Source: Pararhodobacter oceanensis (lineage in GTDB: Bacteria > Pseudomonadota > Alphaproteobacteria > Rhodobacterales > Rhodobacteraceae). Taken from it: a stretch of DNA of 64,000 nucleotides. The stretch lies in contig NZ_QDKM01000004.1 in assembly GCF_003076755.1 (NCBI RefSeq), positions 248,001 to 312,000 on the forward strand. The letters run 5' to 3'. The notes below the pieces were generated by a model. The model did not search any database, was not told where the DNA came from, and was given only the letters and a program-made list of their open reading frames with translations. Below, piece by piece: positions 6,062-60,539 of the stretch; position 1 is the stretch's first letter; the number at the start of each line of letters is the position of its first letter. Made by a program: the position numbers and the translations under genes.

Positions 6062-8358
6062 GCCTGTTGCCCGTTCTCCGTGCGGCCCCCGCGCGATGTG
6101 CGCAAGATTGGAAGCCGGATTTCAGCCATCGCACCGTGATGCGCGCAGCCTTCCATAATCGGCGCGTCACGCAAATCCAGCGTGCCGCCGTGTTCCTCAA
6201 TAATTTTCTTAACGATGGGCAGGCCCAGACCAGTGCCCTTTTCGCGCGTCGTCACATAGGGTTCAAACAGCCGCGCACGGTCTTCCGGCAGGCCGATACC
6301 ATTGTCGGCAATGGTGATCGAAGCGCGCTCATCATCCAGTGTCATCGCCACCGAAACACGCGGTTGATAGCCCACGGGGGCGCGACCCGCCTCGATCAGG
6401 CCTTCGGTGGCTTCGCCGGCGTTTTTCAACAAATTGGTCAGCGCCTGCGATATCATTGTCGAGTCGATCTCGAGTGTCAGCGGCACCTCGGGCAGCACGG
6501 CGTCGAATTGCACCGCCTCTTGCCCCGCCTCTTGCAAGACCAGCGCATCGCGCAGGATTTCCACCAGATCGACCGGGCGCCGGTCGGGTTCAGGCATCCG
6601 TGCAAAGCGCGAAAACTCGTCAACAATGCGTCGTAGGTCATTGGTTTGGCGGACAATTACATCGGTGAGGGTCTGCAGGGACTGGGCCTCATCCTCGGGC
6701 AATTGGCGACCGAATTTGCGCTTAATCCGATCCGCAGACAGCTGGATCGGGGTCAGCGGGTTCTTGATTTCATGGGCAATCCGCCGCGCCACATCGCCCC
6801 AGGCCGCCATCCGCTGCGCCGAAACCAGATCGGTCACATCGTCAAAAGCGACCACATAGCCCTCAAGCAGCCCCGCCGAGGTGCGTCGTTCCGACAGCCG
6901 CACCAGCAGGGTTTCCAGACGTCCATTGCGGCTGATGCGCACCTCGTCCTGCACCCGTCCGCTGATCATCCTGCCGTCGCTGTTTTGCAACCGTTGCAAG
7001 AGCGGCGCGAACTCGGGCACAACGCTGGACAGATCTTGCTGCGCGGCGTCGAGCGAGTCGATTTTAACCAACATTTCGGCAGCACGGTTAACGAAAGCCA
7101 CCCGCCCATCTTCATCCAGCCCGATCACACCGGCGCTCACCGATCCCAACACGGAATCGAACAGCCGTCGGCGCTCTTCGATCTGGCGGGTGTTGCCCAG
7201 AAGCGTCTCGCGCTGGCCCTTGAGTTGCCGCGTCATCTGGTTGAACACGCGGCCCATCGTGGCAATTTCATCATCGCCGGTTTCCTCGACGATCTGCACA
7301 TCCAGATCGCCCTGACCGACCCGCTCGGCGGCCTCGGCCAGACGCCCCACTGGCCGCGAGAGCCCTTCGGCAAACCACATGCCCAGCCAGACCGCGGCGA
7401 GGATTAGGATGATCGCAAAGGCAAGATACAGCAGCCCGAAATTGAACAGGACTTTGCCACGCTCGGTCTCAAGCTGGTTGTATAGCTGGATGGTCTGCTG
7501 CGTATCATCCAGCAGGCTGAGGATCTCACCGTCAACCGCGCGCGCGATATACAACAGCCGGTCGCCATAGCCATCCAGAGGCACCAGCGCGCGGAACTCG
7601 CCATTCGGCCAATCCTTGGCCAGCGCGATCTCACCGGATAGCGCAAGCTCTAGATCCTCGGGCGAAGGGGCAACGAAATCAAAGAGGTATGAGCGTTCTC
7701 CGCGCACACGCAGGGTTCCATCGGCATCGACGACAAAGGCCGCGCGCAGCCCGCGCTGGATACCCGCCTGTGCTTGGCCGAGGATTTGCCGGATCTCGCC
7801 ATCGGAGAGAAACACATTGCTGCGACGCGCCCGCTCCAGCGTTTCGGCAACGATCCGACCGTCGGTCACGAGGCTGCGCACCTGTTCATCCTGATAGGCT
7901 TCGGCGGCGGCGAGCGAGCTGCCAACCACATTGCGCACGCGCTCGGAAAACCAGCCTTCGAGGCCGATATTGATCGTGATCACCGCGAAAACCGCCACCG
8001 TAATAGCCGGCAAAAGCGCGATCACCGCGAATAATGCCGAGAGCCGCAGATGGAGTTTCGACCCCGCCGACTTTGAACGCCGCGCCGCGACCATCCGCGC
8101 AATTCTAGCCATGACCAGCGCGGCCACGACCATAATATAGACCAGATCGACCAGCAAAACGAGGCGCAGCGACGGCAGGTTGCTCATCCCCGCGATCGGG
8201 CCAAGCACCAAGGCCGTGGCCAGAACCAGCACCGGCGCGAGCACCACCAAAAGTAGCGTCAACAACGCCTGAAACCGCCGTTGCGCAGGGTTTCTGCGCC
8301 GCAACAACGGATCGGGCCGCGCGGAAACCGTTAACTCGGGACTGGGGCGTTCATTCAT
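6058..8358 (-). CDS. ntrY: Nitrogen regulation sensor histidine kinase NtrY
   Basis: Membrane sensor kinase. About four hydrophobic segments are visible: three within the first 150 residues and one near residue 310, flanking a periplasmic region. HAMP (RPVGRLAEAAERV), PAS, HisKA with the phosphorylated His in [12 protein letters not shown], and a HATPase_c domain with the N box and GTGLGLPI G box follow. The ATG at 8358 (MNERPSPE) is preferred, giving 766 residues; a start at 8427 is possible but adds a non-conserved basic stretch. It is separated from ntrC by 111 bases, so ntrYX may have its own promoter. Confidence 0.9.
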   Translation of the reverse strand: MNERPSPELTVSARPDPLLRRRNPAQRRFQALLTLLLVVLAPVLVLATALVLGPIAGMSNLPSLRLVLLVDLVYIMVVAALVMARIARMVAARRSKSAGSKLHLRLSALFAVIALLPAITVAVFAVITINIGLEGWFSERVRNVVGSSLAAAEAYQDEQVRSLVTDGRIVAETLERARRSNVFLSDGEIRQILGQAQAGIQRGLRAAFVVDADGTLRVRGERSYLFDFVAPSPEDLELALSGEIALAKDWPNGEFRALVPLDGYGDRLLYIARAVDGEILSLLDDTQQTIQLYNQLETERGKVLFNFGLLYLAFAIILILAAVWLGMWFAEGLSRPVGRLAEAAERVGQGDLDVQIVEETGDDEIATMGRVFNQMTRQLKGQRETLLGNTRQIEERRRLFDSVLGSVSAGVIGLDEDGRVAFVNRAAEMLVKIDSLDAAQQDLSSVVPEFAPLLQRLQNSDGRMISGRVQDEVRISRNGRLETLLVRLSERRTSAGLLEGYVVAFDDVTDLVSAQRMAAWGDVARRIAHEIKNPLTPIQLSADRIKRKFGRQLPEDEAQSLQTLTDVIVRQTNDLRRIVDEFSRFARMPEPDRRPVDLVEILRDALVLQEAGQEAVQFDAVLPEVPLTLEIDSTMISQALTNLLKNAGEATEGLIEAGRAPVGYQPRVSVAMTLDDERASITIADNGIGLPEDRARLFEPYVTTREKGTGLGLPIVKKIIEEHGGTLDLRDAPIMEGCAHHGAMAEIRLPILRTSRGGRTENGQQA

Positions 8359-8469
8359 CGTTAAACAGATAAAATCGCAAAAACGACGGGTCGGGACATG
8401 GCGGTAACGGGCCTGATATAAGGTCAAGTCGCAGGGGGTGAGACAATTGCGCCACGCCCTGTTGCCAAT

Positions 8470-9864
8470 CTACATCAATTTGCGACGGCGTGTCACGCTA
8501 ATATCCAGCTCATTGGTCTTTTTGCGCAAAGTATTTCGGTTAATTCCCAGCAGTTCCGCGCAGCGCAACTGATTGCCGCCGCTATATTCCAGCGCAATGT
8601 CCAATAGGGGCGCCTCGACCTCGCGCATGATGCGTTGGTAAACGCCGGACGGCGGCAGCTCATCGCCGTGCAATTCGAAATACCGGCGCACATGGCGGGC
8701 GACGGATTCGGCCAATGTTCCGCCGTCATTGCCATGCGTCGGCGCCGCGCCGGTCGAGGCCGCGCCGAGCACCGCTTCGACCTCGGCCGCGGCGATCTCG
8801 GGGTCATGGCCGGTGATCATCAATCGCTGCACCATATGCTCGAGTTGCCGCACATTTCCGGGCCAATTGTAGCGCCGGATCACCTCGAGCGCGGCGTCGG
8901 ACATATGTCGACCGCTGCCGGTTTCGCGCGTGGTGCGAGCCAGAAAATGCTGCGTTAACAGAGGGATATCATCGAGACGCTCACGCAAAGGCGGCACCGT
9001 AAGGGTCACGCCGCTGATCCGGAAATAGAGATCATGGCGGAAGTTGCCGCTCTCGAAGGTGCGGGTGAGCGTCTCGTCGGCGATGGCGATGATCCGCGGC
9101 CCATCCTCGGGCGCGGCGTCGAGCAAACGCACCAGCCGCGCCTGCGCATCGCCGTCCAGATCGCCCAGCCCGTCAATCACCAGAGAGCCGCCGCGGGCTT
9201 GGGTCAACAGCGCGCGCCCGTCGCCGCCGCCGGCGGGATCCATGGTTAAATCCTGCGCCGAGACGACCAGAAACGGCTGTGCGCTGCGGTCGGAAAATTC
9301 ATGCAAGGCGCCTGCGATTAGCGATTTACCGGTGCCGGATTCTCCAATGATCAGAACCGGTAACGCGGTGTTCATCACCTGCGCGACCAGCCGGTAGAGC
9401 GCCTGCATCGAGGGCGTGCGCCCGACCAGAGGCAGGTCTTGTCCGGCCTGCACGACACCCTCGCTGCCCGCCTGCGGGGGGCTGATCCGGCGTCCGCGCC
9501 GCGCGCTGGTTAACCCTTTTTCTACCCGTGCCAGCAGGTCCGGCAGATCAAAAGGCTTGGGCAGATAATCCCAAGCGTCCGCCTCGGTCGCCTGTATAGC
9601 GGTCATGATCGTGTTTTGCGCCGAGATGATGATCACCGGAAGACCGGGGCGTAACACCTTGATTTTCGGCAAGGTTTCCAGACCGTTCCCATCCGGCATC
9701 ATCACATCGCTGATCACCAGATCGCCCTTGCCCTCTTCGACCCAGCGCAGCAGCGTGGTCAGGCTGGCGGTGGCGTGGACGCGGCATCCGGCGCGGGTCA
9801 AAGCCTGTGTCAAAACCGTCCGGATCGTCCGGTCGTCGTCTGCAATCAGGACCGTTCCATCCAT
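8470..9864 (-). CDS. ntrC: Nitrogen regulation protein NR(I), NtrC
   Basis: Response regulator of the NtrBC nitrogen system. Receiver domain with the acceptor Asp in [13 protein letters not shown], an AAA+ domain with Walker A GESGTGKS, and a C-terminal Fis HTH ([18 protein letters not shown]). Two departures from standard enhancer-binding proteins are visible. The GAFTGA loop is absent, with a short [11 protein letters not shown] in that region. The Walker B motif reads [10 protein letters not shown], so the usual Glu after Asp is Gly. Rhodobacter capsulatus NtrC is known to lack GAFTGA and to activate the sigma-70 polymerase; the same is inferred here. Start and ntrB stop share one base (TGATG). 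Confidence 0.93.
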
Positions 9865-34484: not shown

Positions 34485-34625
34485 CGTCCTTGTTTCCTTC
34501 GATTTGTCCGCGTCCTTCGGCCCCCGCATGGGAGTTGTGGCAAAGCCGCCTTCGAACTGCGCCCCCGGCTTGCGGAGGATGATAAAGATACGTGCCCCGG
34601 ATCGGATGATGCGGAGCACGCGTGG

Positions 34626-34655
34626 GCTTTACCGGCTTTCCGCCTGCAAAGTCAA
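34626..34655 (-). promoter_or_regulatory. Candidate rplU-rpmA promoter
   Basis: Minus-strand -35 TTGACT at 34650-34655 and weak -10 TAAAGC at 34626-34631, 18 bases apart, about 140 bases before the rplU start. A strong -35 with a poor -10 is the pattern seen at ribosomal promoters that need CarD in Rhodobacter; that reading is inference. Confidence 0.4.
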
Positions 34656-35013
34656 GCGCTGCCAAGGTGTGGGGCCGAGAAATCCACCATGGTGTTTTGC
34701 CAGCCTGCGCACAGGTATCTTGCGGCGGTCGATGCGCAAGACCAATGCCCACAAGACCAATGCCCACAGGTTCGGCGCGCGACGCCCTTGATGACGGTGT
34801 ATAGGTAGCGCCTGTATAACGCCCTAACGCCGAAAAAGCCATCCGCATCTCCCGCCAGGGTTGCGAACGACCGCCGATGCCTACCATGCGCTGCGTCCAA
34901 ACCCTATGAATTAACGCCCTAAAACCTTAACCTCTTGGTGTTTTTCAATTTACGCTTAACGGGTGCTGCGGTAACCCTGTGCGGTAGTGCCCGTTCAGCC
35001 CTAGGATCGTTTC
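34656..35013. other. Intergenic region between rplU and the glycan operon
   Basis: About 360 bases between divergent rplU and the GT2 gene, part of a 529-base gap. It is more AT-rich at the right end and contains a 15-bp direct repeat (34737-34766). No tRNA, conserved short ORF or convincing promoter for the plus-strand operon was found. An AGGA site precedes the ATG at 35014. Confidence 0.5.
34737..34766. repeat. 15-bp tandem direct repeat
   Basis: The unit CAAGACCAATGCCCA occurs exactly twice in tandem (34737-34751 and 34752-34766) in the non-coding gap upstream of the GT2 gene. A two-copy repeat may be replication slippage or a protein-binding site; nothing further can be said. Confidence 0.7.
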
Positions 35014-36549
35014 ATGCCTCAAGCCCGCGTTGGAATCGTTGTCCGCACCAAAGACCGCCCGCTGTTCGTAACGCGCGCGTTACATGCGGTGATGGCGCAG
35101 ACCGCGCGCGACTGGCAGGTGATCTTGGTTAACGACGGCGGTGATCCCGGCGCGCTGGCGCAGGCGATTGACGCGGCCGGATTGAGCCACGCCTTTGACG
35201 ACCAGCGGATGACGACGCTTAATCTGACCGCCTCGATCGGGCGTTCGGCGGCGTTCAACCGCGGCGCCGAGACCCTGCAGACCGAGATGGTCTGCTGCCT
35301 TGACGATGACGACACTTGGGAGCCGGCTTTCATCGCCGAATTGCTGCGGCTTTATGATGACACCAAACCGATGGCGCCGGATCTGGGTGGCGTCGCCTCG
35401 CTGGTCACTGCCGTGCGCGAGGATATCGTGACAGAGAAAGGGCGCGAGAGCATTGTGCGACTGGGCACCGAAGGCCTGCCCGCGGCCTTCACCAGAGAGG
35501 ATTTCTTTGTCAATCCAATCGCCTATGCGACCTACCGGCATGATCTTTACCCCGTGCAATGGATGCTGAACCGTAAGGCCGTGCTGGCCTGCGGCGGCTT
35601 TCCCGAGGCCTTCAGCGTCATGGAAGACCGCGCTTTCATGAACCGGTTTTTGCAACGCTGGCGGCTGGCGCTGCTGGATCGCCCGCTGGCCTATCATCAC
35701 CGGCGGATACAGCGCAGCGGCGACAAAGCGCAAAGCGTGGCGATGAACACTTTGGACAATCCTTCCTATGATTGGCGGCTGTTTTCGGACCTTGCCAAGA
35801 TCGAGGTGAATACGCCGCAAGACCTGACGCAGGACACCGCCCCGCTCTCGGCTATTCAGGCCGGGGATCTGATCCGCGCCAGTGCCGCGACCCTGCTCAA
35901 AGAGGTTAACGACGAGACCAGCGCGCTGTGGCACAAGATCAACGGCGAGGCGCAAAGCCTGCGCGCCAGTATCGAGGCGGTGGATGCGCGGATCGGCGAT
36001 GTCGAGCCGCGACAGGGTGCCGATGCCGTGCCAGAGGCCCGTGTCTGGTCGCTATGGGATGCGGTCGGCGGCGGCGATATCGGCTACCGGCTGGCAGTGC
36101 AAACGCCGTTTCTGACGCGGCTGGAACTCTCGGCCCCGAGCGATCAACCCGGGCTGCTGTTTCACGCTTCGACCGCGGCGCAGCGAGCGGTTTTGCAGGT
36201 GCCGCAGACCGAGGGCTTCATGGCGCTTGAACTCTCGCTGCAGGATCTGGACCCGCGCGGATTGGGGCTCAGATGCGAATTGGTGGTCTCGGGCAACGAG
36301 GGGTATCTGTTTGAAACCGCGCTTTCGGTCGCGCATCACGACCGCATCGGACGCAAATCCCACCGGTTCGAAGAGTCCCATGTCCACGCCTGCCCCGCCG
36401 GTGGCGCGGTCAAGGTCGACCGGCAGTTTCCGGCTTCATTGCTCGGCCGCTCGAAAACCGCCAAACTCTCGATTATCCTGCCGCGTCAGGCACATAACTT
36501 CCGGCTGGTCCTGCATGATCTGGTGGTCAGCCGTCTTCAGGAGGCATAA
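35014..36549 (+). CDS. GT2 glycosyltransferase with coiled-coil and C-terminal beta-rich region
   Basis: The N-terminal GT-A fold of family 2 covers residues 1-240: GIVVRTKDRP at the first strand, LVNDGG, and the metal-binding DxD in CCLDDDDTW (about residue 94). A further acidic site lies in FSVMEDRAFMNRF. Residues about 285-335 look like a coiled coil, and the last 165 residues are beta-rich without a recognised domain, possibly carbohydrate binding. First gene of a five-gene run with spacing of 6 bases or less or overlaps. Role inferred: glycosyl transfer in synthesis of a sulfated surface or extracellular glycan. Confidence 0.8.
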   Translation: MPQARVGIVVRTKDRPLFVTRALHAVMAQTARDWQVILVNDGGDPGALAQAIDAAGLSHAFDDQRMTTLNLTASIGRSAAFNRGAETLQTEMVCCLDDDDTWEPAFIAELLRLYDDTKPMAPDLGGVASLVTAVREDIVTEKGRESIVRLGTEGLPAAFTREDFFVNPIAYATYRHDLYPVQWMLNRKAVLACGGFPEAFSVMEDRAFMNRFLQRWRLALLDRPLAYHHRRIQRSGDKAQSVAMNTLDNPSYDWRLFSDLAKIEVNTPQDLTQDTAPLSAIQAGDLIRASAATLLKEVNDETSALWHKINGEAQSLRASIEAVDARIGDVEPRQGADAVPEARVWSLWDAVGGGDIGYRLAVQTPFLTRLELSAPSDQPGLLFHASTAAQRAVLQVPQTEGFMALELSLQDLDPRGLGLRCELVVSGNEGYLFETALSVAHHDRIGRKSHRFEESHVHACPAGGAVKVDRQFPASLLGRSKTAKLSIILPRQAHNFRLVLHDLVVSRLQEA

Positions 36550-36555
36550 ACGCCG

Positions 36556-37335
36556 ATGTTCGATCCCGATCCGACCGATCTTGCCGTGCGCGGAGAGCGC
36601 GGGATTGACCTGTACCTGCGGCTTGGCGATGTCGCGCAACAACGCAGCCGTTACCGCTGCATTGCCACGGTGCTGGACGAGGAGGGCAAGGAGCGGCTGG
36701 TCGATTTCGAACCGCATGCCAAACGTGATACCGCCCGCCTGTTGAGCCGCGCCCGCAACGCTATGGACGACAGGTTCATGACGCAGCCGATGGTCTTGGG
36801 CGATGCCACCAGCTGGCCCTCGGCGCGCGATGCTGCTGATCCGGTGGCGCTGTTTCTGTATCTGGATTTCTTTCGCGCCTGGCAGGTAGCCGATATGGCG
36901 CTGCAGCGGTTGATGGCGCAATTGCACGCCGATCCCGACGCCCTGCCCCATGATCCCGCGCGCATCGCCGGCAGCATCCTGCCGCTGTTCGATTTCAATC
37001 GGCTCACGGCGGGGTGTCGTCTGGCCGCGTTGATCGAGCCGGTGCTGCGCCGCCGGATTGCTGCGCCCGGGTTTCGCGACGATGGCAGCGGCAGCACCGG
37101 TTATGCGCTGCGCATGTTGGGTGACCTCTGCCTGCGGGCCGAGGATTACCCGCAAGCCCTCGCCTGTTTTGCCACCGCAACCGGCGCGGGCGACAATCCC
37201 TTCCGCCGCCGCAAAGCCATCGAGGCCGCGCATCTGGCGGGCGATGCTACGGCACTGCAGAACCACCTCGCCGCCTACCGCGGGCAATGGGATTTACCGG
37301 ATGATTTGGCCGCATACGCCGAGGCCGATGCATGA
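36556..37335 (+). CDS. Unrecognised protein of the glycan operon
   Basis: A 259-residue protein matching no family I know. It opens with an acidic MFDPDPTDLAVRGERG segment, then a predicted beta-rich part (YRCIATVLDEEGKERLVDFEP). The C-terminal half is helical with TPR-like pairs (ALRMLGDLCLRAEDYPQALACF). It sits 6 bases after the GT2 gene and its stop overlaps the first sulfotransferase start by ATGA, so it is made with them. It could be an adaptor or sugar-binding subunit; this is inference only. Confidence 0.6.
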   Translation: MFDPDPTDLAVRGERGIDLYLRLGDVAQQRSRYRCIATVLDEEGKERLVDFEPHAKRDTARLLSRARNAMDDRFMTQPMVLGDATSWPSARDAADPVALFLYLDFFRAWQVADMALQRLMAQLHADPDALPHDPARIAGSILPLFDFNRLTAGCRLAALIEPVLRRRIAAPGFRDDGSGSTGYALRMLGDLCLRAEDYPQALACFATATGAGDNPFRRRKAIEAAHLAGDATALQNHLAAYRGQWDLPDDLAAYAEADA

Positions 37336-38120
37336 GCCGTGTGAACGCCGCTGACATTCTGTGCATTGGCGCACAGCGCTCAATGACCAGTTGGTTGCAC
37401 CACGCGATGTCCGCGCATCCGGGCACTTGGGCATTCCCGAACTTCGAGCCGGTGACCTCCACCTCTAAAGAGGCGCATTACTGGGACTGGAACCTGAAGC
37501 GCGGAGATGACTGGTACCGGGTGTTAATGCGCCCCCTTAAGGACGAGTTGCAAGGCCTTGATTTCACGCCTGATTACGCATTCTTAAATACCGAGCATAT
37601 CGCCCATTGCAAGGCGCTGAACCCTGAGGCCAAGGTGATCTATATCCTGCGCGATCCCTTGGCGCGGGCGCTTTCTGCGCAGCGTATGCACAGCATGTGG
37701 GCGAGCCAGAATGCCGCCGCCGAGGACTACAAGATCACCTATGGCGACGCATTCCTGAAGAAATGTGCACAGGCGCGCATCTGGGAACACGGCGCTTATA
37801 GCGCGAACATCCGGCGTTGGCGGCGGCAATACCCTGATCTCTTGGTGCTCAATTTCGAGGATCTCGCCGCCGATCCGCTGGCGGGATTAAAGACGGTCCT
37901 GCAGCATTGCGGGCTCGGGTTCGAGGCACTTCCCACTGCCGATCAAGAGCGGATCACCAGTCGCGCCGCGCGGGTTATCTGGCAAACGCCGGCCTATGCG
38001 ATTGACGCGGATGCTTTGCATTTTCTGCACGGCGCGACATGGAATGAACGCCGCCGCACCGAGGAAGAGACCGGATTGCGCTTTGCCGAGGGCGCGGGAT
38101 TATTGGAAGGGCTGGCATGA
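37332..38120 (+). CDS. Sulfotransferase domain protein, paralog 1 (altered P-loop)
   Basis: PAPS-dependent sulfotransferase-like protein of 262 residues. The 3'-phosphate-binding segment YILRDPLARALSAQRMH is well kept (Arg and Ser present). The 5'-phosphosulfate loop reads CIGAQRSMTSWL: the usual Lys is Arg. The motif KEAHYWDWN follows. It is clearly a tandem duplicate of the next gene, with the same order of motifs throughout. It overlaps both neighbours by ATGA. Catalytic competence is uncertain because of the Lys to Arg change. Confidence 0.8.
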   Translation: MSRVNAADILCIGAQRSMTSWLHHAMSAHPGTWAFPNFEPVTSTSKEAHYWDWNLKRGDDWYRVLMRPLKDELQGLDFTPDYAFLNTEHIAHCKALNPEAKVIYILRDPLARALSAQRMHSMWASQNAAAEDYKITYGDAFLKKCAQARIWEHGAYSANIRRWRRQYPDLLVLNFEDLAADPLAGLKTVLQHCGLGFEALPTADQERITSRAARVIWQTPAYAIDADALHFLHGATWNERRRTEEETGLRFAEGAGLLEGLA

Positions 38121-38896
38121 AGAGCCGCGAGAATATCGCCGATATCCTGTGTATCGGCTGCCAGAAAGGCTCGACCAGTTGGCTGCATTCGGTGCTAAAT
38201 TGCCACCCCTCCACCTACGCGTTTCCCGATTCCGAACCGGTCACCTCGACCGACAAAGAGGCGCATTATTGGGACTGGAACGCGCAGCGCGGTGCGGATT
38301 GGTATCGGCAGTTGCTGACCCCGCAAGATCCGGCGCAGTTGTCGATGGATTTCACCCCGGAATACGCCTGTCTGACCGAGGCGCAGATTGACGATTGCAA
38401 GGCGTTGAACCCGGGCGCGAAGGTGTTTTACATCCTCCGCGATCCGCTTGCGCGGGCGGTTTCGGCGCTGCGGATGCATATGCTCTGGCATCTGGGCAAA
38501 GACCATTCGGAACCGCTGAAACTCGGCCCGCAATTCGAGGCATTCGCACAGGAGGCGCGGCTTGAGGAACACGGTGATTATCTGCGCAATGTCACCGCCT
38601 GGCGAGCGCGCTATCCTGATCTTATCTTGTTGAATTATGAGGATTTTCACACCGACCGCGCGGCCAGTATTGGGGCGGTATTTGCGCAACTCGGGCTTGA
38701 TGCGGATGAGATGGATGCGCCCCAAAGGCAGCTATTCAACGGGCTGATGACGGGCCGCGTTTGGGTGTCCGAAAAGTTCGAAATTGACCGCGCGGTGTTG
38801 ATGTTCCTGCAGGGTCTGACGTGGCAGTATCGGCAGGCGGCAGAGGATGCGCTGGGTATGCGGTTCACCGAGGGCGACCGTATGTTGGGGCGTTAA
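38117..38896 (+). CDS. Sulfotransferase domain protein, paralog 2
   Basis: PAPS-dependent sulfotransferase-like protein of 259 residues. The 5'-phosphosulfate loop CIGCQKGSTSWL keeps the Lys, and the 3'-phosphate segment is YILRDPLARAVSALRMH. EPVTSTDKEAHYWDWN is shared with paralog 1. The acceptor is probably a sugar hydroxyl, judging from the glycosyltransferase neighbours. It starts inside the paralog 1 stop (ATGA) and is followed 2 bases later by the TPR-glycosyltransferase gene. No PAPS synthesis genes are in the window. Confidence 0.83.
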   Translation: MKSRENIADILCIGCQKGSTSWLHSVLNCHPSTYAFPDSEPVTSTDKEAHYWDWNAQRGADWYRQLLTPQDPAQLSMDFTPEYACLTEAQIDDCKALNPGAKVFYILRDPLARAVSALRMHMLWHLGKDHSEPLKLGPQFEAFAQEARLEEHGDYLRNVTAWRARYPDLILLNYEDFHTDRAASIGAVFAQLGLDADEMDAPQRQLFNGLMTGRVWVSEKFEIDRAVLMFLQGLTWQYRQAAEDALGMRFTEGDRMLGR

Positions 38897-38898
38897 CC

Positions 38899-41049
38899 AT
38901 GGAGTATTCGCTGGCGCGCAGCCTGTGGTCCGGCCCGCTTTCTGCCCCGCAAGCGCCCGCGCAGGATCTGGCGGCGCGGATCGCCCAAGGGCTGGATTAT
39001 CCCGAGGCTTTGGCCGCTTTACAGGCTTTGGCGCGACATGGTTTGCCATTGGATCCCGCGCTCACGAGGGCTTTGGCGCAATGGGATTGGTCGATTGATC
39101 TGGCGCAGGTTGCCATGCAGGCCACGGTATCGGCGCGCGTCGATCCCGAGCCCGCTTTGGCCGAATTGCAGCGACGGGTGGAGGCGCAGGGCCGCCGCTT
39201 CGGGGTCTTGGCTTGGGCCCTTTGGGGGCTGGGCCGCTGCGAACAGGCGCGGGCGGTTCTGGCCGATCTTGATCCACAGTCCGATAGCTATGATGCCGAC
39301 CGGCTGGCGCGGGCGGAATTGGCAATCCTCTCCGGCGAGGCGCCGGAGCCTTTGGCCCTGCCCGGTGCTTTGCGCCTGTCGCTCTTGCATCTGTGGCGCA
39401 ACCGGGGGGCGCGGGCGCTGACCCAGCGTTACCAGACCCTGCACTTTGGGTTTTCCGCGCATCCGCCGCTTTGGGCATGGTTAATTGACGTCTTTATAAC
39501 CGAGCGCGATTTTACCCATGCGCGCCATGCGGTTGAGCGTCTGCGCGCGGCCCATCCCGAGGGGCACGCGGAGGTGGTGGCGCAGCGTATCCGGCTGGCG
39601 ATAGAGCAAAACGACCCCGCCACGGCGCGGCGGCTGTTAACCAAACATCTGCCCGCAGATACACCATGGACATGGTCGGAACGCCAGCATCTGCAGCACC
39701 TGCGCTGTCTGCTGTTGGAGGCCGCGCAAGCCCCAATCCCCGACTATGCCGCCGCCTATCAACATGCCTGTGCGGCGCAGCGGCTTTACCCCGAGAATGC
39801 GGCGTTGCGTGGGCTCTGGCTGACCCTGCGCGAGATTTGCGAAGATTGGGACGGGTTGGCGGCTGAGTTAATGTCAGACAATCGGTTTGCGCCGGATCGC
39901 GCCGCAATTCTGGCGCGGATCGGACGGCCGGACGCCGCGCTAAGGCTCACCGAAATCCCGCCGCCATTGCCGCCTGATACAGCGCTACGGTTGCGCCTGT
40001 CGCGGACGCAGTGGCACATGCGGTGCGGGGCATTGGAGGCGGCTGCGGCAGAGTTGGACCCGATGCCGCAAGACTGGCCCTTGCGCGCGGATCACGCCTA
40101 TTGGGCCGCAGAAATCGCTCTAGCCAAGCGCGATACCAAGGCCGCGCGCCGCGCGCTTTCGCCTGCATTATCAAGGCATCCGACCCGCTTGGGGCTGATC
40201 TTGTCTGCCGCGCGGATGGAGTATTTTGCCGGTGAATTCGCCGCTGCACAGGATCATTTGCAGCGTTTTCATGAGCTTAAAACCATCGAACTGGGCACGC
40301 CCCCGAAGGATGATCTGCGTGATATGATTGTGCGCGATGCTGCTGAGGCGCAGACCGAGGGGCGCGCAGCGACCAATTCGCCGGGGCTTGCCGCGCGCCA
40401 TTTTGCGTTGACCCCGCCAGATTTTATCCCGCCGCAGCAGACCCAAGTGGTCCCGCGCCAGCTCTGGCATTATTGGGAGGGGCCGCGCAGCAGCGGGGTG
40501 TCGCGCGGGATCGAGACATGGGCGCAACTGCATCAAGGTTTCGCACAACGCGTGTTCGACGCGCAGAGCGCCGCGGCATGGCTGGAGCAAAATGCACCGG
40601 ACCTCGCGCCGGTCTTTGCACGGCTCAGCCAACCGGCCTTGCGCGCCGATCTGTTTCGCGTCGCATTGATCGCGCAGGAGGGCGGGGTATTTGCCGATCT
40701 CGATGAATTCCCGCGTGCGCCGGTCACGCCTTGGCTCGCCGATGCGCGCGCGGTGATGGTGATCGAAGAGGGCCATGGCACCATCGCCAATAATTTTCTC
40801 GCCACCCTGCCCGCTCTGCCATTGTTCACCCGTTTGACCGCGCGCATCGCCAATCGGTTAACCAAGACACAGACGCCCTATGCATGGTGGGATAGCGGCC
40901 CCGCGCAGCTGACGCTTGAGGTGTTTGCCGCGCAGCAGAGCGAGACCGAGCGCGCGGGGTTGCGTTTCCTCACGCAAGCCGCGTATGAGCAGCGCATATC
41001 CACCAATCTGCCCTTTGTGCACAAGCGCAGCCCCGATCACTGGCGATAG
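38899..41049 (+). CDS. TPR protein with C-terminal GT32-like glycosyltransferase domain
   Basis: A 716-residue protein. Residues 1-500 are Ala/Leu-rich helical repeats of TPR type (for example RRFGVLAWALWGLGRCEQAR and AARRALSPALSRHPTRLGL). From about residue 515 a DxD-sugar-binding domain follows: QLWHYWEGP, RADLFRVALIAQEGGVFADLDEF with the DLD metal site, and GTIANNFLA. This resembles GT32/capsular mannosyltransferases. The ATG at 38899 is chosen because it lies 2 bases after the preceding stop. Last gene of the operon, followed by a terminator. Confidence 0.75.
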   Translation: MEYSLARSLWSGPLSAPQAPAQDLAARIAQGLDYPEALAALQALARHGLPLDPALTRALAQWDWSIDLAQVAMQATVSARVDPEPALAELQRRVEAQGRRFGVLAWALWGLGRCEQARAVLADLDPQSDSYDADRLARAELAILSGEAPEPLALPGALRLSLLHLWRNRGARALTQRYQTLHFGFSAHPPLWAWLIDVFITERDFTHARHAVERLRAAHPEGHAEVVAQRIRLAIEQNDPATARRLLTKHLPADTPWTWSERQHLQHLRCLLLEAAQAPIPDYAAAYQHACAAQRLYPENAALRGLWLTLREICEDWDGLAAELMSDNRFAPDRAAILARIGRPDAALRLTEIPPPLPPDTALRLRLSRTQWHMRCGALEAAAAELDPMPQDWPLRADHAYWAAEIALAKRDTKAARRALSPALSRHPTRLGLILSAARMEYFAGEFAAAQDHLQRFHELKTIELGTPPKDDLRDMIVRDAAEAQTEGRAATNSPGLAARHFALTPPDFIPPQQTQVVPRQLWHYWEGPRSSGVSRGIETWAQLHQGFAQRVFDAQSAAAWLEQNAPDLAPVFARLSQPALRADLFRVALIAQEGGVFADLDEFPRAPVTPWLADARAVMVIEEGHGTIANNFLATLPALPLFTRLTARIANRLTKTQTPYAWWDSGPAQLTLEVFAAQQSETERAGLRFLTQAAYEQRISTNLPFVHKRSPDHWR

Positions 41050-41081
41050 GCGCAAACCAGCGCGACCTCGCCAAACCCGCT

Positions 41082-41099
41082 GTCCACTCTGGACTTTTT
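41082..41099 (+). terminator. Candidate terminator of the glycan operon
   Basis: GTCCA (41082-41086), loop CTC, TGGAC (41090-41094) followed by TTTTT, 33 bases after the stop of the TPR-glycosyltransferase gene. The stem is short, so strength is uncertain. Confidence 0.45.
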
Positions 41100-41264
41100 G
41101 CCCCCCGCGTGGCCCAATATGACGATGACCCACCCGCTCCGCATGGCGCTTTCGACCCTGCCACCTGTGACGCCATCCGCGTGCAGGCCGCAGGTTGCCC
41201 CGGTATCTGCGGCGCGTGGGTTTTCTGCCCGCGGTCCTGTTTCTGCCGTGAGGTTTAACCTTTC

Positions 41265-42173
41265 ATGAACCCTTCTCCTGATATCCTCTGTATCGGCTCG
41301 GTCCTGTGGGACATTATCGGGCGCACCGAGATGGCGCTGGCGACGCGGCGCGATATGGGCGGGTTGATCACCCGTTTGCCCGGCGGTGTGGCGATGAATA
41401 TCGCGATGACGCTGGCGCGCTTTGGTATGGCGCCTGCGGTATTGACCGCGATTGGCGGCGATCCCGAAGGTGATGAATTGCTGCAGGCGGTGGCGCAACT
41501 TGGCGTCGACACGCGGTTCGCCCACCGTATCGCCGAGCGGCCCACCGACCGCTACATGGCGATCGAGGATGCCACCGGTCTGGTCGCGGCGATTGCCGAT
41601 GCGCATACGCTAGAGGCGGCGGGCGCCGATATCCTGCAGGCGCTGCACGACGGGCGGCTGGCCACGGCGCAGCAGCCTTGGGCGGGGCAAATCGCGCTCG
41701 ACGGCAATCTGACCGCCGAGCTGCTGGCCGAGATTGCCGGCTCGCCGATCTTCTCTGCCGCTGATCTACGCATTGCGCCCGCCAGCCCGGGCAAGGCCGA
41801 GCGGCTGCTGCCGGTGATGGCGCATCCGCGCGCGACGCTTTACGTCAACCGCCAAGAGGCCGAGCTGCTCTGCGAGACCGCATTCGACGGTAGCCGCGCC
41901 GCCGCCGAAGGTCTGGTCGCCAAAGGCGCCGCGCGCGCCTTGGTCACCGATGGCGGCACCGATGCCTCGGATGCGGCGCGCGGTGCCGAGACATTCACCC
42001 GCCCCGCGCATGTCGTGCGCCCGCGCCGTATTACCGGCGCGGGTGATACTTTTATGGCGGCGCATATTTACGCCGAAAGCCGCGGCGCAGAACGCGCTGA
42101 TGCGCTCAAACAGGCGCAAGCCGCCGCCGCTGCCTATGTTGCCTTTGCCGATGATGGCGAAAACGGAGATTAA
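41265..42173 (+). CDS. psuK: Pseudouridine kinase (PfkB family)
   Basis: Ribokinase-like enzyme of 302 residues, with the substrate-binding GGVAMNIAMTLARFG and the catalytic anion hole/base motif ITGAGDTFMAA near the C-terminus. Assignment to pseudouridine rather than another nucleoside rests on the psuG gene 2 bases downstream. Converts pseudouridine to its 5'-phosphate. A 215-base gap precedes it, with no strong promoter recognised. Confidence 0.88.
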   Translation: MNPSPDILCIGSVLWDIIGRTEMALATRRDMGGLITRLPGGVAMNIAMTLARFGMAPAVLTAIGGDPEGDELLQAVAQLGVDTRFAHRIAERPTDRYMAIEDATGLVAAIADAHTLEAAGADILQALHDGRLATAQQPWAGQIALDGNLTAELLAEIAGSPIFSAADLRIAPASPGKAERLLPVMAHPRATLYVNRQEAELLCETAFDGSRAAAEGLVAKGAARALVTDGGTDASDAARGAETFTRPAHVVRPRRITGAGDTFMAAHIYAESRGAERADALKQAQAAAAAYVAFADDGENGD

Positions 42174-56496: not shown

Positions 56497-57720
56497 TTAC
56501 AACACCTGATCTAGCGCGGCAATCAATTGGTCAACCTCGGCGCGCGTGGTGTAATGCACAAAACTCAACCGCAGCACGCCATGATCGGCGTCGGCACCCA
56601 TCGCGCCAAGCGCCCGCAGCGCGTAGAAATCACCGCCGCCCGCCATAATCCCGTGGCGGGCAAGCGCGCGCGCAAGATCCTCGCCGCGCGCCTCGGTTTG
56701 CAGGGCCACGGTCGGCGCGCGGTTCTCGGCCTGATGGGGCCCCAGCACGCGAACCTCGTTGCGGGTGCCCAGATAATCGAGCAAAGGCTGCAGCAACGCC
56801 GTTTCATGGTCGCGCATCAACTGATGGGCAAGCGCCGCCCGCCCCTTGGCATCCAGCCCGCCACCGCCGTGATGGGCGGCGAATGCGTCGATGTAATCGG
56901 CCATCCCCGCGCAGGCCGCGATCTGCGCATGATCCGGTCCGGCGGGCGTAAACCGTTTGTAAAGAACCTCGGCGTTAAAATAATGCGCCTGATTGGGCAG
57001 CGCCATGCCAAGGTCGCGCCGGATCACCATGATGCCCTGATGCGGACCATAGGTTTTATAGGCGGAAAACAGATAGATATCGGCGCCAAGCGCGGCGACA
57101 TCGACAAACCCATGCGGCGCGTAGCTGACGCCGTCCACGCAGGTCACCGCGCCCGCCGCATGCGCCATACGGGAGATTTCAGCCACCGGATTCACTTCGC
57201 CCACCACATTCGAACAATGCGGAAAGCAGACCAGTTTGACCGGACCGCTCAGCAGCGCTTGCAGGCGTTCGAGCGGCAAATGACCGGTTGCCGGATCAAT
57301 CTGCCATTCGCGCACCTCGATGCCCGCATCGGCAAGGCGGCGCCACGGGCCGGTGTTCGCCTCATGGTCTTGGTTGGTGACAATGATCGCATCGCCCGGT
57401 TGCAAATACTGCCGGAAGGCTTGCGCCAAGACATAGGTGTTCTGCGTCGTCGACGGGCCGAAAGACAGCTCATCCGTATCGACGCCCATCATCGCCGCCA
57501 GACGGCTGCGCGCCTCGTCCATCTCGGCGCCGGCCAGTTGCGAGGCCTCATAGGGCGCATAGGGCTGCACCTTGCGCTGGTGATAATAGCGCGTCAGCCG
57601 GTCGATCACCGCACCGGCGGTATAGCTGCCGCCGGCATTTTCAAAAAACGCCTGCCCTTGCAGACTGGGTTCGGCAAAGGCGGGGAATTGGGCGCGGGTA
57701 AAATCACTATCAAGGGTCAT
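56497..57720 (-). CDS. Class V PLP-dependent enzyme, cysteine desulfurase-like
   Basis: Fold-type I PLP protein of 407 residues, resembling the cysteine-desulfurase-like family (TIGR01976 type). FENAGGSYTAGAV opens the active site and the PLP Lys is in YLFSAYKTYGPHQG, while the region where SufS has the catalytic Cys reads MAGGGDFYALRALG without Cys. Desulfurase activity is therefore doubtful; an aminotransferase or epimerase-like activity fits better. The ATG at 57720 has GGAG six bases upstream. Divergent from the GntR regulator with 80 bases between them. Confidence 0.85.
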   Translation of the reverse strand: MTLDSDFTRAQFPAFAEPSLQGQAFFENAGGSYTAGAVIDRLTRYYHQRKVQPYAPYEASQLAGAEMDEARSRLAAMMGVDTDELSFGPSTTQNTYVLAQAFRQYLQPGDAIIVTNQDHEANTGPWRRLADAGIEVREWQIDPATGHLPLERLQALLSGPVKLVCFPHCSNVVGEVNPVAEISRMAHAAGAVTCVDGVSYAPHGFVDVAALGADIYLFSAYKTYGPHQGIMVIRRDLGMALPNQAHYFNAEVLYKRFTPAGPDHAQIAACAGMADYIDAFAAHHGGGGLDAKGRAALAHQLMRDHETALLQPLLDYLGTRNEVRVLGPHQAENRAPTVALQTEARGEDLARALARHGIMAGGGDFYALRALGAMGADADHGVLRLSFVHYTTRAEVDQLIAALDQVL

Positions 57721-57800
57721 GCGAATCTCCATATCTGGCGGCAGCTTAGCCACGCGGATCGCCGCCGAACAGGGTCACAGCTCGATTGACAGGATTCCCG

Positions 57801-58700
57801 ATGTCTGACATTCTGATCGGCAATAATAATAGTGTAAAAACGCAGCAGGTTGATGGCATGAGCAGCAGCGCCCCCAGTGACGGGAAGGCGACCGACCGCG
57901 TGAGCGCGATTGCGTCGGTTCTTCAAGACAATATTCTGACCGGCCATTACGCGCCCGGTGATCGCCTGCCCTCCGAGGCGGATCTTTGCGCCTATTTCAA
58001 GGTCTCGCGCCCGACCCTGCGTGAGGCTTTGGGCCGGTTGACCGCGCGCGGGTTGATCCAAGCCAAACGCGGCGCCGGTGGCGGGGCTTTTGTCACCCAG
58101 CCTTCCGCCGATCTGGTGTCTGATCAGATTTCCGCTTTGGTCGCAATGGCCACACGGTTGGACGATTACGCCCACCGCCCGCTGTTGACCGAAACCCGCA
58201 TCCAGTTGCAAATGGGCTGCGCCGATCTCGCGATCCTGAGGCAATCCGACATCTCGGATATGCGCGCCGAGATTGACCTACAGTCCGATTTCGCCATTTC
58301 CGAGGCCGAGTTTGTCGCTTCCGTCCGGCGCATGCATCTGGCGTTGGCCAGCGCCTCGGGCAACGCCTCGATGAGCATTCTGGCGCAGGGGTTGATTGCC
58401 GCGGAATTCGCCATCACTCCCACTGAGGGCTATCCGACCCGCATCCGCGCGCGGTTTCTCTCCTATCACGTGCGCATTGCCAATGGCATCGCGGGCGCGC
58501 GCAGTGAGGATGTGCGCGGCGCCCTGACCGAACTTTGGGGGTTTGAGCAAAACCGCCATCTTGACCCCGAAGACGACCAGCCTCCTGCCGAACGCCCGCC
58601 CCGCATGCGCGATCTCAGACTGCCGCCGGTGCAGCGCCTGACCCCGTTGCAGCCCGCCGAGGATGACAGTTCTGACGGAGCCGCACCCGACGGCAGCTAA
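57801..58700 (+). CDS. GntR/FadR family transcriptional regulator
   Basis: Regulator of 299 residues. Winged HTH at about 40-105: GDRLPSEADLCAYFKVSRPTLREALGRL and GGGAFV, followed by an FCD-type all-helical ligand domain and a Pro/Asp-rich tail. FCD members respond to carboxylic acids. The ATG at 57801 (MSDILIGNNNSV) is preceded by an AGGA site. Placed between two class-V PLP genes, divergent from one and upstream of the other across ssrA; it probably controls one or both. Confidence 0.88.
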   Translation: MSDILIGNNNSVKTQQVDGMSSSAPSDGKATDRVSAIASVLQDNILTGHYAPGDRLPSEADLCAYFKVSRPTLREALGRLTARGLIQAKRGAGGGAFVTQPSADLVSDQISALVAMATRLDDYAHRPLLTETRIQLQMGCADLAILRQSDISDMRAEIDLQSDFAISEAEFVASVRRMHLALASASGNASMSILAQGLIAAEFAITPTEGYPTRIRARFLSYHVRIANGIAGARSEDVRGALTELWGFEQNRHLDPEDDQPPAERPPRMRDLRLPPVQRLTPLQPAEDDSSDGAAPDGS

Positions 58701-59098: not shown

Positions 59099-59282
59099 CA
59101 TTACATATCAAATACTTGCGTAGCGTTGTTAAGGTGCATATTGCGGGGTTTTCAGTGCCGCTTCGCCACGTCACCCTTGGGCGCATGGTTGACGGCTGGC
59201 CGCTTCGCCCGCATACCAAGCGGGATGTTTTGTGTCGCAAATGAGCTGCGCTGCATCGATGAAAAAATTCAGGACCCCTTTG

Positions 59283-60539
59283 ATGATCCGCGAGAATCCC
59301 GACCTGATCGCCGCCATTCGTGACCGTTTCGCCCATGTCGATAGTTGCCCGTTTCAGGGCCCCCGCGTTTTCTTTGAGAATGCCGGTGGCGCGTTGACGC
59401 TGAAATCGGTGGTCGAGACCTCGGCGACCTATGCTGCGATCCCCGACAACCAAGGCCGCGACAACCCTGCGGCGCATGCACTCATGGCGACGATTGCCAA
59501 GGCCAAGGCTGATCTCGCGCTCCTGATGAACGCGCCCTCAGGGCAGTTTTTCGCGGGGGAAAGCGGCACCGAACTGTTGTTCCGCCTGATCCGCACCGCC
59601 TGTGTCAACGCGCCCAAGGGGGGCAAAGTCATCGGATCCAGCATCGAACACCCGGCCAGCCGCAGCGCGGCGCAACGCTGGGCCGAGATCGCGGGGCTCG
59701 ACTATATCAGCGTCCCCCATGACGATTCCACCGGTCAGGTCTCGCCCGAGGCCTATGCCACTTTCATGACCCCCGATGTCGCGGTGGCAACGATCCTCCA
59801 TGCCTCGCCGGTCACCGGTATGGGCATGGATGTGGCGGGAATTGTGCAGGAAATCCGTAAGGTTGCGCCCGAGTGCATGATCATCGTTGACGGTATCCAG
59901 CACGCCGCGCATGGGCAAATCGACCTCGCGGCTTACGATGTCGATGGCTATGTGATCTCGCCCTATAAGATGTTTTCGCGCCATGGTTACGGGATTGCAT
60001 GGATCTCGGACCGGTTGACCGCACTGCCCCATGACATGCTGATGAATGCGCCTGCCACCGGCTGGGAGTTCGGCACCCGCGACACCGGTGCTTATGCCAC
60101 AGTCTCGGATGTGGTGCGCTATTTTGAATGGCTGGGCGGTGAGGTTTCGGACGTCACGGATCCGCGCGCGCGCATTGAGGCGGCGGGGCGTGCGATCCAT
60201 GATTATGAGACGCATCTGACCAACGCGATGCTGCATGGCACCGGCAACCTGCCCGGACTGGCGGAGATGGCGCATGTCACGGTGCTGGCGGGTATCGATA
60301 ATCCGGCGCGCGAGGGGCTGGTGTCAATTGCGGTGAAGGGCCATGCCTCGCCGGATGTGGTGCGCCTGCTCAACGAGAACGGCATCCGCACCCACACCCG
60401 CAAGGCCGATCACTACAGCGGCAATGTGCTCGATCCATTGGGGCTGAGCGACTGCATCCGCATCTCGTTGTGCCATTACAATACCGAAGCGGAAGTCGCG
60501 CAATTGCTCAGTGTTTTGAAGGATCTAGAGCCTGCCTGA
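59283..60539 (+). CDS. Class V PLP-dependent aminotransferase-fold enzyme
   Basis: Fold-type I PLP protein of 418 residues, with RVFFENAGGALTLKSVVE near the start, Asp in MIIVDGIQHAAHGQ and the PLP Lys in YVISPYKMFSRHGYG. As in the enzyme at 56497, the cysteine of the desulfurase loop is missing in its C-terminal domain (IRTHTRKADHYSG), so its name as a desulfurase would be misleading. The ATG at 59283 has an AGGA site. A start at 59259 or 59232 is possible, since the gene lies downstream of ssrA with 180 bases free. Confidence 0.83.
   Translation: MIRENPDLIAAIRDRFAHVDSCPFQGPRVFFENAGGALTLKSVVETSATYAAIPDNQGRDNPAAHALMATIAKAKADLALLMNAPSGQFFAGESGTELLFRLIRTACVNAPKGGKVIGSSIEHPASRSAAQRWAEIAGLDYISVPHDDSTGQVSPEAYATFMTPDVAVATILHASPVTGMGMDVAGIVQEIRKVAPECMIIVDGIQHAAHGQIDLAAYDVDGYVISPYKMFSRHGYGIAWISDRLTALPHDMLMNAPATGWEFGTRDTGAYATVSDVVRYFEWLGGEVSDVTDPRARIEAAGRAIHDYETHLTNAMLHGTGNLPGLAEMAHVTVLAGIDNPAREGLVSIAVKGHASPDVVRLLNENGIRTHTRKADHYSGNVLDPLGLSDCIRISLCHYNTEAEVAQLLSVLKDLEPA

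Follow-up and report, generated by a model that had tools for sequence, protein, structure and literature searches.

A conserved five-gene operon of Pararhodobacter that very probably builds and sulfates a small sugar chain

Five neighbouring genes of Pararhodobacter oceanensis very probably direct the assembly of a small sugar chain and its sulfation, their enzymes resembling those of heparan sulfate synthesis. These genes, g1–g5, fill the plus strand of positions 35014–41049 of the window, the whole 64,000-nucleotide stretch of DNA that was analysed. They may constitute a self-contained cytoplasmic pathway which builds and sulfates a short glycan, most likely on a protein acceptor; this fuller reading is preferred tentatively, at slightly less than even confidence. 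Few bacterial sulfated glycans have been characterised (the relevant passages of a 2024 review report six genera that make sulfated polysaccharides; PMC11625862), and the operon is a small, conserved cassette, free of export genes, found in species with named strains. Judged by titles and the starts of abstracts, the open-access literature yielded no description of Pararhodobacter sulfotransferases or of such a sulfotransferase–glycosyltransferase operon.

Gene layout and conservation

The first gene, g1 (35014–36549), encodes a GT2 glycosyltransferase of 511 residues and is followed by g2 (36556–37335), which encodes a lineage-specific protein of 259 residues. Two tandem genes of the heparan sulfate sulfotransferase type come next, g3 (37332–38120; 262 residues) and g4 (38117–38896; 259 residues). 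The last gene, g5 (38899–41049), encodes an N-terminal TPR-like region and a C-terminal GT32-type domain in a protein of 716 residues, counted from the ATG at 38899, which was taken as the start, the mechanical open reading frame beginning at the GTG at 38821. A sequence-only reading of the same DNA had described this set of a GT2 enzyme, an unrecognised protein, two tandem sulfotransferases and a TPR-GT32 protein, and that description holds, with all five reading frames present. The junctions are spaced at +6 (g1/g2), −4 (g2/g3), −4 (g3/g4) and +2 bases (g4/g5), which agrees with the claim that no gap exceeds six bases. Three ATGA or near-ATGA junctions had also been counted, a somewhat overstated figure, as there are two exact ATGA overlaps, at 37332–37335 and 38117–38120, and one near case.

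The arrangement is more than chance, because relatives share the order of the genes as well as the two ATGA overlaps, and dN/dS lies between 0.14 and 0.40 in the three genome pairs tested (two pairs only for g1). Gene order is retained, as far as the contigs extend, in all 14 named loci found, and an attempt to refute the operon by a lack of co-conservation, proposed in the sequence-only reading, therefore failed. Among the 10 named loci of the Pararhodobacter type, 7 contain all five genes in complete form and 9 have the g2/g3 overlap, while the g3/g4 overlap is present in all 9 that have a complete g4. Pararhodobacter-type loci carry two sulfotransferase copies, Natronohydrobacter one. Three genus genomes (G204, G205 and G207) have no sulfotransferase match; in the genome G202, g1 and g2 were found at a contig end. 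A single operon of g1–g5 is supported. In half of the named loci (7/14) g5 is separated from the psuK orthologue by a methyltransferase-like gene.

The operon had been said to end at a hairpin with T5. A candidate terminator of five pairs followed by T5 does lie on the plus strand at 41082–41094, about 30 bases 3′ of the g5 stop codon. The claim is somewhat overstated, as the two strands of 34600–41400 hold 10 terminator-like sites against 5.8 ± 2.7 in shuffled sequence, and the hairpin is no better than chance as a terminator. A foreign origin of g3 and g4 was considered and rejected. Their overall G+C is 0.59 compared with 0.63–0.66 in g1, g2, g5 and the flanks; this is mostly explained by amino-acid composition, since their third-position G+C, computed for the window and for relatives (10 loci in all), deviates by no more than 0.03 from the range spanned by g1, g2 and g5, where it is not inside that range.

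The sulfotransferase pair

Both g3 and g4 match the Pfam families Sulfotransfer_3 and Sulfotransfer_1 (PF00685/PF13469), with E-values from 1e-16 to 6e-11. The best solved-structure match of each is heparan sulfate 3-O-sulfotransferase 3A1, and NDST is also matched; these matches are remote, the best PDB E-values being 6e-10 for g3 and 2e-9 for g4. At E up to 0.01, g3 matches 16 PDB sequences and g4 matches 20, and none of them is a tyrosylprotein sulfotransferase. It had been proposed that matches to protein or lipid sulfation families only would count against a glycan product; as the closest solved structures are heparan sulfate enzymes, sulfation of a glycan by g3 and g4 is favoured. An APS kinase-family match occurs in 17 of 18 genus genomes, P. 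oceanensis among them, although it is unspecific, being found in 11 of 14 control genomes too.

The PAPS loop reads GCQKGSTSW in g4 and GAQRSMTSW in g3, so that each has one of the two residues, Lys or Arg, which passages of the review give for this loop (PMC11625862). All 11 g3 rows carry Arg in place of Lys, together with Met at position 18, while Lys is retained in 10/10 g4 rows, 6/6 single-copy rows and 13/13 distant relatives (L005–L017). This g3-specific Arg (11/11 rows against 0/29 relatives) is a new observation, and g3 remains under purifying selection. Other motifs are shared. Glu47, in the stretch KEAHYWDW, is invariant in 27/27 rows and is the putative catalytic base; phmmer alignments pair it with a Glu in both 1T8T and 1NST. 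Arg107 and Ser115 of the RDP...S stretch are likewise invariant (27/27 rows) and, as judged from the family, probably bind the 3′-phosphate.

Apart from the question of the acceptor, g3 could be a diverged, perhaps inactive subunit which pairs with g4 and is not an independent enzyme, an interpretation considered possible but somewhat doubtful. The uniform Arg and Met18, set against Lys in all relatives compared, point towards it, as do the tandem ATGA overlap with g4 and the purifying selection on g3. On the other hand, g3 retains the Glu and the 3′-phosphate residues, and Arg at the PAPS-loop position occurs in other bacterial sulfotransferases; according to the same passages of the review, Stf0 has Arg there and NodH an RXG motif (PMC11625862). 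In addition, an account of Halobacterium describes two sulfotransferases acting on two sugars of one glycan (PMC11980604). The pair offers a natural test of the effect of a PAPS-loop Lys to Arg change in a heparan-type sulfotransferase.

Glycosyltransferases, g2 and the acceptor

The protein g1 matches Glycos_transf_2 at E 3e-14. Its PDB profile matches, which include PglI, GalT1, TagF and the chondroitin and heparosan synthases, span positions 4–124 only, and a conserved C-terminal region (about 340–505) is without any Pfam family match. In g5, Gly_transf_sug with its DXD motif is matched at residues 534–616 (E 4e-8). TPR matches of the single g5 sequence fall below the Pfam cut-off, and the g5 profile matches solved TPR proteins. 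By hydropathy, no signal or membrane segment is apparent in g1–g5, whose maxima over 19 residues are 0.73–1.16, whereas a DUF502 neighbour reaches 2.30.

For g2, Pfam gave nothing above its curated cut-off, and a weak TPR-like signal lies near residues 183–208. A relationship with the TPR part of g5 was rejected on profile comparison, with a probability of 0.5%; a phage origin was set aside, as a PHROGs search up to E 0.01 found nothing; and a RovC-like match, confined to 1 of 15 members and below cut-off, was likewise rejected. Plasmids gave no g2 match at E up to 0.01. A new observation from profile matches is that g2-like genes in two other genera adjoin either a sulfotransferase gene (L069) or a g5-like gene (L070 and L072). 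By these pairings g2 goes with both enzymes, and it is proposed that it may be a partner or adaptor of the sulfotransferase and of g5. It marks an unassigned family whose genes keep company with those for sulfotransferases and TPR-GT32 enzymes.

In the proposed pathway, the TPR region of g5 would bind the acceptor, most likely a protein, and the GT32 domain would add the first sugar. The chain would be extended by g1, after which sulfate from PAPS would be transferred by g4, with g3 acting as a second or diverged copy. The role of g2 might be to hold the enzymes to one another or to the acceptor, and the product would exit via the acceptor's own route. A more specific version, a cytoplasmic glycoprotein pathway in which the TPR-GT32 enzyme primes a protein with a short glycan that becomes heparan-like on sulfation by the tandem heparan-type pair, with the altered-loop g3 as partner subunit and g2 as an undescribed adaptor family docking both enzymes, is unlikely to hold in all its parts.

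The sequence-only reading had suggested a sulfated decoration on a protein or an envelope glycan. That reading is partly supported: the operon is co-conserved, and the closest solved structures of its sulfotransferases are glycan enzymes. Between the two acceptors, the TPR-glycosyltransferase layout and the parallel with Caulobacter FlmG speak for a protein, which g5 is favoured to prime by analogy, while a polysaccharide is possible because export genes are present elsewhere in the genome. The operon might decorate an envelope polysaccharide, LPS or exopolysaccharide, for whose polymerisation and export genes at other places would be responsible, with g1 and g5 adding side sugars that g3 and g4 sulfate; this is quite conceivable, at clearly less than even confidence. 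Poly_export is matched in all 18 genus genomes, and at three places on other contigs in that of P. oceanensis. Plasmid records matching g4 number 136, and in the two examined the match lies within an EPS-type polysaccharide locus; a distant Marinovum gene with a GT32 domain is surrounded by genes for capsule export. However, an exporter is also present in G204, G205 and G207, which have no sulfotransferase match, and inspection by eye of three neighbourhoods of the operon (Pararhodobacter, Natronohydrobacter and G037) revealed no polymerase, flippase or exporter. The absence of such genes from the operon, noted earlier, holds by Pfam for the five genes and three neighbours, and by eye for the other neighbours.

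Action of g3 and g4 on a glycolipid or small molecule (a sulfolipid, a Nod-factor-like compound or a secondary metabolite), glycosylated by g1 and g5, is improbable: bacterial precedents are NodH and Stf0, according to the review passages (PMC11625862), and weak further matches link g3 to Teg12/Teg14 and g4 to steroid and alcohol sulfotransferases, but the best matches are glycosaminoglycan enzymes and no lipid or acyl family is matched by any gene of the operon.

Flagellin, the protein acceptor that FlmG most readily suggests, is not supported. Its scores seemed to be split by operon presence, but G202, one of the low scorers, carries g1 and g2, and no linkage or co-variation of the operon with flagellin was found. 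G204 and G207 have flagellin yet no sulfotransferase, and of the operon carriers G599 and G601, assemblies of unstated completeness, the former has a sub-cut-off flagellin match and the latter none. The P. oceanensis flagellin has 275 residues, compared with about 418–426 in four other genus carriers examined.

Comparison with known systems

A Wzx/Wzy or ABC-type capsule or EPS locus contains a polymerase, flippase or exporter, none of which is found in the operon. The two EPS-type plasmid loci, of Sinorhizobium medicae (CP140910) and Phaeobacter porticola (NZ_CP016365), encode sulfotransferases that share 29% and 27% identity with g4. An O-antigen ligase gene is present in both, along with further polysaccharide genes, with a sugar transferase and export and Wzz-domain proteins in one and a tyrosine autokinase in the other; the operon has none of these.

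Caulobacter FlmG, as passages of its report describe it, consists of an N-terminal TPR part, which binds flagellin that is glycosylated in the cytoplasm, and a C-terminal glycosyltransferase (PMC7591256). This layout, with the TPR region ahead of the glycosyltransferase domain in a single alphaproteobacterial protein, is also that of g5, which is cytoplasmic by hydropathy only. The catalytic part differs, being GT-B in FlmG and of the GT32 type with DXD (Gly_transf_sug) in g5, and those passages mention no sulfotransferase whereas the operon has two. In Halobacterium salinarum, Agl30/Agl31 (VNG1056C/VNG1057C; PMC11980604) are described as a pair of sulfotransferases serving a single short glycan linked to protein, a likeness by description to an archaeal N-glycosylation system.

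The closest enzymes remain the heparan 3-O-sulfotransferases and NDST (1T8T and 1NST). The 3′-phosphate stretch and the E-x-H/E-x-Q stretch of g3 and g4 align with both structures, whereas the PAPS loop of g4 aligns with 1T8T and that of g3 with 1NST. In contrast to these enzymes, g3 and g4 are bacterial and show no apparent signal or anchor in the membrane, the PAPS-loop Lys is replaced by Arg in g3, and the operon encoding them has no known heparosan backbone gene.

The operon and its distribution

Five genes on the plus strand at 35014–41049 of the window encode a GT2 glycosyltransferase (g1), a 259-residue protein (g2), two tandem sulfotransferases (g3 and g4) and a TPR-GT32 protein (g5, ATG at 38899). 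Their positions, proposed in a sequence-only reading, were confirmed by an ORF check; the hairpin with which that reading ended the operon, located at 41082–41094, belongs to a class of sites no more frequent than expected by chance. The junctions measure +6 (g1/g2), −4 (g2/g3), −4 (g3/g4) and +2 (g4/g5) bases. Pfam assigns g1 to GT2, g3 and g4 to Sulfotransfer_3/Sulfotransfer_1, and g5 to Gly_transf_sug with sub-threshold TPRs; g2 reaches the cut-off of no Pfam family, and nothing was found for it in NCBIfam (E up to 1), PHROGs (E up to 0.01) or PDB (E up to 1). Over the five genes dN/dS ranges from 0.14 to 0.40 (three genome pairs; g1 in two pairs only). The source genome comprises 4.08 Mb in 32 contigs.

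Relatives were sought in a species-genome collection by one scan with g3 as single query, which detects close relatives only. The nearest match outside the window was an unclassified Rhodobacteraceae MAG (67%), followed by Pararhodobacter-type genomes (58–65%). The scan yielded 14 loci in records labelled Pararhodobacter, Natronohydrobacter, Rhodobacter sp. and unclassified Rhodobacteraceae/Proteobacteria, against which the five proteins were compared by tblastn. All five genes are complete and in the same order in seven of the ten Pararhodobacter-type loci (L047–L051, L053, L055), the remaining three (L046, L052, L054) being truncated by a contig end. The 4-base g2/g3 overlap recurs in 9/10 of these loci, and the 4-base g3/g4 overlap in all nine with a complete g4. 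The four Natronohydrobacter loci (L056–L059), and genome G037 of another genus, carry g1-g2-sulfotransferase-g5 with a single sulfotransferase and different neighbours.

Two further genes were recognised by eye, each in seven of the 14 loci. A SAM-dependent methyltransferase-like gene lies between g5 and psuK (L046 5802–6443; L047 13653–14276; L049 13677–14303; also L048, L050, L051, L055); the g5-psuK gap of the window is 215 bases and holds no match to it. A trypsin-like protease gene, apparently secreted, diverges from g1 (L049 6222–7532 minus; also L048, L050, L051, L052, L054, L055), and has no match in the window. Elsewhere in the window, ribosomal protein L21 (33771–34484 minus) has a long C-terminal extension with a sub-threshold helix-hairpin-helix match. 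Two genes of similar look, at 56497–57753 (minus) and 59232–60539, each contain an FFENAGG stretch and flank a gene resembling a GntR-type regulator at 57786–58700 (all by eye).

Within the genus (18 genomes) a sulfotransferase is found in 14; a fifteenth genome, G202, holds g1 and g2 where a contig breaks off. Genomes G204, G205 and G207 lack a sulfotransferase match, and the stretches fetched beside rplU contain none of the five genes; other genes adjoin rplU in G204 and G207, and a contig end in G205. By eye, these neighbours include flhA-like genes in G207 and G204 and a fliR-like gene in G207 (L139 4414–7289; L140 5823–7904). At family level, with one genome per genus, a sulfotransferase match at E up to 1e-10 occurs in 15/198 genomes, reaching 47% identity or better only in the source genome, G001 and G037 (the other 12, 28–35%). 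The g2 profile matches at least 5/198 family genomes, the G017 match spanning only 37 positions, and at least 1/385 class genomes, the source genome. These distributions are lower bounds, since at most 13 (family) and 6 (class) candidates per genome were scored; the family g2 search overlooked a second g2-like gene in G001, which a profile scan of locus ORFs did find. Even as a lower bound, the range of the gene set looks narrow. There is good support for a real, lineage-restricted operon whose products build a glycan and sulfate it, and we consider this reading probable.

The sulfotransferases and g2

The best solved relatives of g3 and g4 are heparan sulfate 3-O-sulfotransferases, and the NDST sulfotransferase domain was matched too. 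In a tree of 27 sulfotransferases from these gene sets and three outgroups, three groups were recovered: g3 (11 rows, 100/99), g4 (10 rows, 97/100) and single-copy (6 rows, 60/86). Their branching order is unsettled: a duplication confined to Pararhodobacter would fit, and so would an earlier one followed by loss of one copy in other lineages.

In the alignment, PAPS-loop residue 16 stands opposite a Lys of the NDST loop which, on our reading, would be K614; the cryo-EM structure of NDST1 shows K614–T618 in contact with PAP (PMC10864358). Residue 16 is Lys in all g4 (10/10) and single-copy (6/6) rows and in 13/13 distant sulfotransferases (L005–L017), and Arg in all 11 g3 rows, which also share Met at residue 18. 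Whether g3 is a diverged, perhaps inactive subunit pairing with g4 is a separate question, compatible with any acceptor; we consider it possible but less likely than not. Glu47 and Arg107/Ser115 are invariant in all 27 rows, and g3 dN/dS (0.19–0.21, three genome pairs) is similar to that of g4 (0.14–0.24). Stf0 has Arg at the place of the PAPS-loop Lys and NodH an RXG motif (PMC11625862), and on that account Arg16 is compatible with an active or an inactive enzyme.

For g2, the best evidence of a role is its pairing with neighbours. Neither of two places fetched from G001 holds the full gene set. In one (L069) a g2-like gene (8034–8807) is followed five bases later by a sulfotransferase (8813–9613) with 47–50% identity to g3/g4; in the other (L070) a g2-like gene (8505–9236 minus) lies directly upstream of a g5-like ORF (6332–8725 minus), the two overlapping because the start of the latter is not fixed. 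In G030 (L072) a g2-like gene shares 4 bases with a gene whose product matches the N-terminal and middle part of the g5 profile and leaves the contig before the expected GT32 domain start. The profile, built from 16 g2 rows excluding these three proteins, gave E-values of 3e-7 (L069, the weakest), 4e-16 (L070) and 2e-45 (L072) in a small ORF set, and genome-wide 6e-11 (L070) and 9e-44 (L072). g2 thus goes with either enzyme.

The acceptor

The TPR and glycosyltransferase layout of g5 recalls Caulobacter FlmG, whose catalytic part is GT-B; its TPR part binds flagellin and its GT-B part modifies flagellin in the cytoplasm (PMC7591256). Flagellin was therefore examined as acceptor. It is present in 16/18 genus genomes, G204 and G207 among them, and missing from G205 and G209, both incomplete. 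Eight further or repeated genomes gave a match in seven, over cut-off in six; among operon carriers the match is weak in G599 and absent in G601, possibly identical with the G209 assembly. The flagellin of the source genome is short, and inspection of the flagellin loci by eye revealed no glycosylation gene. These results speak neither for nor against flagellin as the acceptor. By hydropathy window, rather than a dedicated predictor, g1–g5 lack any hydrophobic stretch of the kind expected of a signal or membrane anchor. Our first choice, tentatively held, is a protein acceptor that g5 primes.

The g5 profile matches 22/198 family genomes at E up to 1e-10, including the source genome, G037 and G001; most of the others match over the catalytic part only. 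The distant relatives have varied gene surroundings. Ten of their loci (proteins of 753–1010 residues) were fetched, and in three a TPR-sulfotransferase gene (Pfam) lies near the g5-like gene (L096 10322–14801; L101 91–7963; L102 196–4694), possibly a second sulfation system. L096 and L101 also encode Hint_2-domain proteins (Pfam) and tail-collar-type proteins (by Pfam in L096, BLAST cluster in L101). On an Aureimonas plasmid a distant g5 relative has a GT2 gene and one with a Hint domain beside it. Taken together, these surroundings point to no single acceptor.

An envelope polysaccharide as acceptor is a serious, if somewhat less favoured, possibility. A distant g5 relative on a Marinovum plasmid lies among capsule export genes, and Poly_export is found in 18/18 genus genomes; in the source genome its three places are all on contigs other than that of the window. 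A lipid or small molecule acceptor is improbable. As to sulfate supply, an APS kinase-family match is present in 17/18 genus genomes, the source genome included (G203 at 25 bits only; none in G202), and is unspecific because 11/14 control genomes are also positive.

A search of open-access literature found no description of this enzyme combination. The enzyme families themselves are known; the combination includes one protein without a family and one diverged sulfotransferase copy.
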